Origin: Streptomycetaceae bacterium
GTDB taxonomy: Bacteria > Actinomycetota > Actinomycetes > Streptomycetales > Streptomycetaceae
DNA: 36,606 bases
Assembly: GCA_019243445.1 (NCBI GenBank)
Contig: JAFAUH010000141.1
Location: 1-36,606 of the forward strand
Direction: 5' to 3'
How positions within the stretch are numbered: the stretch's first letter is position 1; each line of letters begins with the position of its first letter. Shown in pieces: positions 15,682 through 36,408 of this stretch. A model generated the notes under the pieces. It searched no databases and had not been told where the DNA came from. It saw only the letters and a list, made by a program, of their open reading frames with translations. The position numbers and the translations under genes are program-made.

Positions 15682-18778
<3,097 letters not shown>

Positions 18779-34940: not shown

Positions 34941-36152
34941 ATGGACAAGCCACGGATCGTCCTGGGCGTGAGCGGCGGCATCGCCGCCTACAAGGCGTGC
35001 GAGCTGCTGCGCAGGCTCACCGAGTCAGGACACGAGGTGCGAGTGATCCCGACCGCGTCCGCGCTGCACTTCGTCGGCGAGGCCACCTGGTCGGCGCTCT
35101 CCGGGAACCCGGTGTCCACCGCCGTCTGGGAGGGGGTCCACCAAGTCCCGCATGTGCGCATCGGCCAGAGCGCCGATCTCGTCGTCGTCGCGCCCGCCAC
35201 CGCGGACATCCTCGCCAAGGCCGCCCACGGCCTCGCCGACGACCTGCTCACCAACACCTTGCTCACCGCACGATGTCCAGTGGTCTTCGCACCCGCCATG
35301 CACACCGAGATGTGGGAGCACCCGGCGACTCAGGAGAACGTCGCCACGCTCCGGCGCCGTGGTGCGCTCGTCATCGACCCCGCCGTCGGTCGGCTCACTG
35401 GCGTCGACACCGGCAAGGGACGGCTGCCGGAGCCCGTCGAGATCTTCGAGACCTGCCGCCGGATATTGGTCGGCGGGGCGGGGAGGGCGGGGAAAGCGGC
35501 TGATCTTGCAGGGCGGCACGTCGTGATCAGCGCCGGAGGCACCCGGGAACCGCTGGACCCGGTCCGCTTCCTGGGGAACCGTTCCTCCGGCAAGCAGGGC
35601 TACGCCCTCGCCCGTACCGCTATCGCACGCGGTGCACGTGTCACTCTCGTGGCCGCCAACACCGAATTGCCAGACCCGGCCGGAGCCGACGTCGTCCGCG
35701 TCACCACCGCACGGCAGCTGCGGGAAGCCGTGCTGAAAGTGGCCGCCGAAGCCGACGCCGTGGTGATGGCGGCAGCCGTCGCCGACTTCAGGCCGGCGCA
35801 CTACGCCGAAGGCAAGATCAAGAAGAAGGACGGTGAGGAGCCCGCGCCCCTCGAACTCGTCCGCAACCCCGACATCCTCGCCGAGCTGTCCGCCGACCGC
35901 CCGCACCCCGGCCAGGTGGTGGTCGGCTTCGCTGCGGAGACGGACGACGTCCTCGCCAACGGGCACACCAAGCTTGCCCGCAAGGGATGCGACCTGCTCG
36001 TGGTCAACGAGGTGGGGGAGCACAAGGCATTCGGATCGGAGGAGAACGAGGCAGTGATCCTCGGGGCGGACGGCGACGAGATCCCCGTTCCCTACGGCCC
36101 CAAGGAAGCCCTGGCCGACGCGGTCTGGGATTGCGTGACACCTCGGCTCTGA
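34941..36152 (+). CDS. coaBC: Bifunctional phosphopantothenoylcysteine decarboxylase/synthetase
   Basis: Two successive steps of coenzyme A synthesis: CTP-dependent cysteine addition (CoaB) and FMN-dependent decarboxylation (CoaC). The 403-residue product has the flavoprotein CoaC domain (LGVSGGIAAYKACELLRRL, VPHVRIGQSADLVVVAPATADILAK, FAPAMHTEMW) at residues 1-175. A basic/Gly linker (GGAGRAGKAADLAG) is followed by the CoaB domain (SAGGTREPLDPVRFLGN, VVMAAAVADFRP and the KIKKKDG Lys motif). The ATG at 34941 follows GGGAGAAG, and the upstream in-frame ORF lacks a site. The palindromic element directly follows the stop. Confidence 0.95.
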   Translation: MDKPRIVLGVSGGIAAYKACELLRRLTESGHEVRVIPTASALHFVGEATWSALSGNPVSTAVWEGVHQVPHVRIGQSADLVVVAPATADILAKAAHGLADDLLTNTLLTARCPVVFAPAMHTEMWEHPATQENVATLRRRGALVIDPAVGRLTGVDTGKGRLPEPVEIFETCRRILVGGAGRAGKAADLAGRHVVISAGGTREPLDPVRFLGNRSSGKQGYALARTAIARGARVTLVAANTELPDPAGADVVRVTTARQLREAVLKVAAEADAVVMAAAVADFRPAHYAEGKIKKKDGEEPAPLELVRNPDILAELSADRPHPGQVVVGFAAETDDVLANGHTKLARKGCDLLVVNEVGEHKAFGSEENEAVILGADGDEIPVPYGPKEALADAVWDCVTPRL

Positions 36153-36199
36153 CGCGCCCGCCCGTCTCCCACCGCCACCCTCAGCGGAGGCGCTTCGCG
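36153..36199 (-). repeat. Palindromic element, copy 3 (after coaBC)
   Basis: It starts at the base after the coaBC stop. Over 37 ungapped positions (36154-36190) it matches the aroC copy at 30 and the aroB copy at 31 positions. The core CCTC-AGCG-GAGG is kept; the outer right arm has diverged into a different hairpin, TCAGCG...GCGC-TTC-GCGCCGCTGA (36181-36206), which looks terminator-like. The minus strand reads [12 protein letters not shown], as in the other copies. Confidence 0.75.
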
Positions 36200-36206
36200 C
36201 CGCTGA
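36181..36206 (+). terminator. Hairpin after coaBC, built on the element
   Basis: The left arm 36181-36193 pairs with GCGCCGCTGA (36197-36206) after a 3-base bulge, with loop TTC. It lies 28 bases after the coaBC stop and overlaps copy 3 of the element. A short TTCTGGTGC tandem duplicate follows at about 36227-36244. Confidence 0.5.
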
Positions 36207-36324
36207 CATGCCTGCCGTGTGGCCTCTTCTGGTGCTTCTGGTGCTTCCGAAGCGGTGAAGCAGTGTCCCGAGCCCCAGTAGATCCAAGGTGCGAGACACT
36301 TTCCCCTCTGTTGGAATCGACCGA

Positions 36325-36366
36325 TAAACTGGTCGTGGTCCGACGGGCGCAGCCCCGCATCGGACC
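36325..36366 (+). promoter_or_regulatory. Candidate metK -10 box and leader hairpin
   Basis: TAAACT at 36325-36330 could be a -10 box (with a weak TTCCCC near -35). It would place the start point just before a hairpin GGTCCGA...TCGGACC (36337-36343 and 36360-36366) with inner GGGC/GCCC. The leader to the metK GTG is about 70 bases. I see no known SAM riboswitch fold; the rest of the gap (36207-36324) holds no recognisable gene. Confidence 0.4.
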
Positions 36367-36408
36367 GACCCGTATGAGTCAGCAGCCGCTGCAACCCCAG
36401 GGAGCGAT

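Follow-up and report, generated by a model that had tools for sequence, protein, structure and literature searches.

The stretch directly downstream of coaBC in the window (the whole DNA analyzed, 36,606 nucleotides) is best explained, with a probability of about 0.78, as a complete copy of a small actinomycete element that occurs dispersed in the genome, inserted fairly recently at the coaBC stop codon. The analysis established that the element forms a family, that its insertion here is lineage-specific, that the unit is 54 nt, that copies within genes are biased toward one reading phase, that stop/start codons are recurrent sites and that flanking repeats occur in excess. In the proposed mechanism, a 46-nt core and a target duplication of about 8 nt would together have added 54 nt (18 codons) at the coaBC stop, placing a second in-frame TGA 18 codons beyond it. 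The same insertion rule would elsewhere produce 18-residue protein inserts, or N-terminal extensions at stop/start overlaps. The features concerned are the following:

16540–16598, + strand: aroC in-frame insert, rearranged (palindromic) form, seen as a gap against chorismate synthase 1ztb
17565–17623, – strand: aroB in-frame insert, rearranged in the window, boundary region against 3qbd
34941–36152, + strand: coaBC (phosphopantothenoylcysteine decarboxylase/synthase), from ORF and gene prediction, TGA at 36150–36152
36149–36156: proposed 8-nt target duplication, left copy CTGACGCG, including the coaBC stop codon
36157–36202, + strand: 46-nt core of the mobile repeat, from the HMM match, with boundaries taken from the clean 54-nt insertion at locus L062
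36157–36184, + strand: constant C-rich block, consensus CCCNCCCGTCNCCCRCCRCCRCCCTCAA, from position frequencies in 117 and 162 copies
36189–36201, + strand: hairpin GGCGC-TTC-GCGCC, loop C-TNC-G on the top strand and C-GNA-G on the bottom strand
36203–36210: proposed target duplication, right copy CTGACATG, 6 of 8 bases identical to the left copy
36291–36404, + strand: Streptomyces-metK RNA (RF03063), cmscan score 89.8 bits, gathering cutoff 44.2

A Complete Copy Directly After coaBC

A high-scoring coaBC orthologue was found in 40 of the 41 related genomes, G010 giving a weak partial match. The original prediction had placed a third copy of a repeat directly after the coaBC TGA, with 30–31 of 37 bases shared with the other copies, and this was borne out: positions 36154–36190 were equal to the aroC copy (16553–16589) at 30 of 37 bases and to the aroB copy (reverse strand, within 17565–17623) at 31 of 37. 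Since the best 37-base match to this query over the whole window was only 22–26 in 60 first-order shuffles, the resemblance of the three copies is not due to chance, and the same element does occur as protein inserts, as had been claimed. In the coaBC copy an outer pairing, TCAGCGG/CCGCTGA, stretches the hairpin to 36181–36206. When the coaBC frame is read past its stop, it continues for 18 codons (RARPSPTATLSGGASRR) and is closed by the TGA of the right duplication copy. As the TGA lies within the proposed target duplication, the coaBC stop and protein are unchanged. The Streptomyces-metK RNA, ahead of metK, is intact, downstream of the element and separate from it.

The distal half of this copy had also been described as remodeled into a hairpin. 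The hairpin does form, at 36189–36201, but it is the normal second half of most family members, and the remodeled copies are those in aroC and aroB, in which part of the constant block, inverted, stands where the hairpin would normally be. The AroB insert occupies one site common to the window genome (G000), its sister G001 and G021, and no other relative read has one. In G001 and G021 the element at aroB is canonical and forward; in the window the flanking sequence is unchanged and the middle is swapped for the inverted constant block. It follows that the hairpin after coaBC represents the original state and the window's protein inserts the derived one, opposite to the order assumed in the original prediction. 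The AroC insert was present in G000 only, the sister genome being without it, and its palindromic form is shared with the copies on contigs C44 and C196. The coaBC copy is therefore the canonical, complete form of the element and not a remodeled remnant, and the idea that it had decayed or turned into a terminator was not supported; its siting at a stop codon recurs in the family.

Two further sets of loci were noted for their form. A ThrC-like protein carries the in-frame insert RPSPAATLNGGASSHILPA in G001 (L302, G001:C33:276249) and none in G000 (L063). Very long perfect hairpins surround the copies at L060 (C128:10424; GGTCCCCCCGGAC/GTCCGGGGGGACC) and L061 (C204:4828; GACGACATCAGCCTT/AAGGCTGATGTCGTC), which suggests growth by template switching.

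Recent Insertion in the coaBC–metK Gap

When 25 coaBC–metK gaps were searched with the HMM, the window gave the sole significant match (31.0 bits, E = 1.3e-9), all others scoring at most 1.7 bits. The element was absent from all of the 24 other gaps examined, that of the sister species included, so the coaBC copy is a lineage-specific, recent insertion. The comparison of this gap among relatives, proposed with the original prediction, thus came out in its favor, and no conserved gap was found in species lacking the element elsewhere. The empty site in sister G001 (locus L107) reads CTGACGAG, against CTGACGCG in the window.

The flanks of the coaBC copy agree at 6 of 8 bases, which is not significant alone, as about 8 of 70 arrays would be expected to reach at least 6 of 8 by chance; the duplication is credible here from the family evidence described below (L062, L284 and 8 of 70 arrays) and not from these flanks. 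The gap in the window is 71 nt longer than that of the sister, not 54, and since the excess is 71 nt against a 54-nt unit, the other 17 nt represent other changes. After the element, at 36215–36250, short direct repeats were observed (CTTCTGGTG CTTCTGGTG CTTCCGAAGC), and these probably explain why the gap exceeds that of the sister by more than 54 nt.

Distribution of the Family

Copies were gathered by pattern and HMM searches of loci. The window genome (5.36 Mb) contained 32 matches to the core pattern at no more than 3 mismatches, against 0 for the reversed-pattern control. By core-pattern search, the copy number was about 30 in the window genome, 20 in sister G001 and 21 in G013, whose hit coordinates are those of Streptomyces sp. 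RPT161; the other relatives among 40 had few or zero copies, and none was found in any relative outside the family. Higher numbers were obtained in Streptantibioticus species, namely 58 matches in S. ferralitis and 44 in S. rubrisoli. A scan of named genomes detected the element in Streptomyces, Streptantibioticus, Nocardiopsis, Amycolatopsis, Nocardia and Allosalinactinospora, and in a phylum-wide sample matches were confined to the window's own family, Streptomycetaceae. Phages gave no match, and plasmids were almost devoid of the element (one megaplasmid-sized record), so carriage by either was rejected. A known RNA family was rejected as well: the Rfam 15 covariance models matched nothing over the element, only the Streptomyces-metK RNA downstream. 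Searches of open-access papers by topic and with the DNA and peptide strings of the element found no description of it; an earlier account elsewhere is possible.

Anatomy of the Element

Each copy is laid out as the constant block CCCNCCCGTCNCCCRCCRCCRCCCTCAA, followed by NSGA and then a GC hairpin. The constant block is partly defined by the search pattern; outside that pattern, conservation is also 83–98% in the flanking CCC and in the GA at positions 27–28. The stem varies from site to site, with 39 distinct 5′ arms in the mixed-species sample. In the four-genome sample the loop was C-TNC-G in 76 of 121 hairpins, with all four bases at N and on 14 different arms. Covariation of the arms does not prove selection, since paired changes also arise when templates are switched within a hairpin. 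On the bottom strand the loop reads C-GNA-G, in keeping with the rule for DNA mini-hairpins of extraordinary stability (PMC4686876), and the same strand has the pattern GGG-N1-GGG-N4-GGG-N7-GGG, a quadruplex spacing. Judged from sequence, the hairpin and the G-rich stretch point to single-stranded DNA but prove nothing. No terminal inverted repeats were visible when the ends of aligned copies were inspected, one end being CCCNCCCGTC and the other the hairpin arm. The four genomes contained 102 arrays, 36 of them with 2–6 tandem copies, spaced mostly by 54 nt and also by 50–57 nt.

Insertion Unit and Target Preference

The insertion unit was 54 nt, or 18 codons, made up of the 46-nt core and a target duplication of about 8 nt. 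At L062 the filled and empty sites differ by a gain of exactly 54 nt, flanked by TTGCTTGG and CTGCTTGG; at L284 the sequence TGACCAAC stands on either side of the element, and the corresponding G000 site is empty. Flanking 8-mers were equal at 7 or more positions in 8 of 70 arrays, where 1.16 such arrays were expected and 500 permutations gave at most 6. These apparent duplications and empty sites indicate that the element inserts as a unit. Most older copies have no recognizable duplication, and the filled/empty alignments at L056, L060, L061 and L290 were too rearranged for boundaries to be set.

Gene context was taken from a home-made gene finder. Arrays within genes accounted for 32 of the 102 in the four genomes, and 27 of these 32, in both orientations, lay in one reading phase (p = 3.8e-9 if independent, which is optimistic because the 102 arrays include orthologous ones from paired genomes). 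In the forward orientation the peptide is like ARPSPTTTLNGGAARR. All nine in-gene tandem arrays were spaced by a multiple of 3, so that the frame was kept. Among the 28 intergenic arrays with an upstream gene on the same strand, 11 lay 2–6 nt past its stop. Copies at stop/start overlaps (L323, L346, L355, L357, L360 and L376) produce N-terminal extensions in the same frame as the in-gene phase, and the copy at L284 forms a mini-ORF whose end overlaps the following gene by ATGA. Insertion at a stop codon, as in the coaBC copy, is thus a preference that recurs across the family. The suggestion that copies meet more than one fate was confirmed, since they occur in genes, at stop/start junctions and between genes, and these several fates are best explained by one insertion rule.

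Alternative Explanations

The element could instead be a transcription terminator or 3′ structure of coaBC, either intrinsic or Rho-dependent through the C-rich, G-poor block, and kept for that function. Its position fits, directly 3′ of the coaBC stop on the coding strand, as does its order of an unpaired C-rich block and then a GC hairpin; moreover, in the mixed-species sample the gene upstream of intergenic copies was on the same strand in 46 cases and on the opposite strand in 24. This orientation bias was gone in the four-genome sample, where the upstream gene was on the same strand in 28 cases and on the opposite strand in 34. The terminator-like character ascribed to the hairpin was not confirmed: the consensus scan found no terminator, there is no T-run, the hairpin being followed by GCTGACATGCC, and the 141-nt RNA folded no better than shuffles (z = +1.26). 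As copies lie within essential genes and at co-directional start codons, where a terminator would be harmful, and as all 24 other examined coaBC–metK gaps lack the element, a terminator is quite improbable; a Rho-type role of the C-rich block is conceivable. The element at coaBC would rather be a near-neutral passenger.

That copies multiply without a transposase, through gene conversion, recombination or switching of templates among repeats, with the constant block as the candidate binding site of a conserved protein, is unlikely too. Such a spread would agree with a block conserved across genera beside a variable stem, with the tandem arrays at 36 of 102 sites, and with the palindromic rearrangements (aroC, aroB, C44 and C196) and long perfect hairpins, which resemble template switching. 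Against it, the copies occupy new unlinked sites that have empty counterparts and repeats like target duplications, and a binding site would need neither an 18-codon unit nor a bias in reading phase. The order of events could also be reversed, the coaBC copy being ancestral, lost from the sister and the seed of the protein inserts, which its canonical form, beside the rearranged aroC and aroB copies of the window genome, might suggest. Nevertheless, because the aroB site is common to three genomes and none of the 24 other gaps examined has the coaBC copy, the aroB insertion is the older, and an ancestral coaBC copy is highly improbable.

Mobilization and Comparison With Known Systems

The element may transpose in trans, being then probably recognized as folded single-stranded DNA. 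RAYT/Y1 transposases (PF01797) were rejected as mobilizers: none was found in the copy-bearing genomes G001, G013, G041, G044, G045 and G046, and these genes do not track copy number, the copy-richest genomes tested being without them. Reverse transcriptases were likewise rejected, as they occurred in some copy-rich genomes but not in G013 or G044, and yet in the zero-copy G020. With both candidates rejected, mobilization in trans by an enzyme other than those screened is proposed, with moderate to low confidence.

Mycobacterial interspersed repetitive units (MIRUs) are actinobacterial repeats of 40–100 bp, present at about 40 sites, often in tandem and apparently mobile, which insert at start codons and thereby couple a small ORF of their own, at –4 nt, to the gene that follows (PMC12548453, PMC2734929). 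Compared by description, the element is also short, often tandem and found at many intergenic sites. A coupled mini-ORF of this kind, with its ATGA overlap, occurs at L284, and several copies lie on stop/start overlaps; L323, L346, L355, L357, L360 and L376 yield in-frame N-terminal extensions instead, and many copies lie elsewhere. It differs in its 46-nt core, its obligatory hairpin, its many copies inside protein-coding genes and its hosts (Streptomyces, Streptantibioticus, Nocardiopsis and Amycolatopsis). Rickettsia palindromic elements (RPEs) are small, lie in frame in unrelated metabolic genes and contribute a conserved peptide (PMC10969869). In this respect the element is similar, being in frame in one phase in 27 of 32 in-gene arrays, with filled and empty proteins for aroB, aroC and thrC. 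However, by the same kind of comparison from descriptions, RPEs belong to Rickettsia and measure about 150 bp, a size that does not fit 54 nt (18 residues), and the element is read in a single phase in either direction and has stop and start codons among its targets. By analogy, the element appears to work like MIRUs at start/stop codons and like RPEs in genes, and we file it as a member of neither. Like REP/RAYT elements and IS200-type derivatives, it forms short, scattered hairpins that are probably processed in single-stranded form, but it differs from them in the lack of Y1 genes noted above. With MITEs it shares its shortness, its non-autonomous nature and its apparent target duplication (8 of 70 arrays; the empty sites of L062 and L284), but it has no visible terminal inverted repeats.

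Tentatively, the element may represent an undescribed class of actinomycete mobile element, a reading that we consider possible but would not yet bet on: approximately 46 nt long, without terminal inverted repeats, recognized as folded single-stranded DNA (the hyperstable C-GNA-G mini-hairpin beside G3N1G3N4G3N7G3), with a 54-nt unit and a target preference through which it would contribute a single 18-residue peptide whichever way it is oriented, lengthen proteins where stop and start codons overlap, or do no harm when it falls on a stop codon. If the account of the element given here is right, 18-residue segments are repeatedly put into the core enzymes AroB, AroC and ThrC of antibiotic-producing bacteria, and N-terminal extensions added to coupled genes, by a repeat of about 50 nt. 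The repeat would then explain many lineage-specific indels, and hairpins otherwise open to annotation as terminators, such as the one after coaBC, and would make it testable how so small a DNA element moves and how proteins accept new loops.

Other Sites of the Element

Copies were also located just upstream of a cofD-like gene starting MRIVVLAGG (L073 at G000:C270:15489, L192, L229 and L315). A hairpin of the TCAGCC/GGCTGA type was present at this site in S. hygroscopicus, S. lycii, G000 and G001, several of these copies being in tandem, and the site is an old, conserved one. Additionally, diverged copies (L290 and L320) were found in the leader region beside a csp (cold-shock) gene in G000 and G001.
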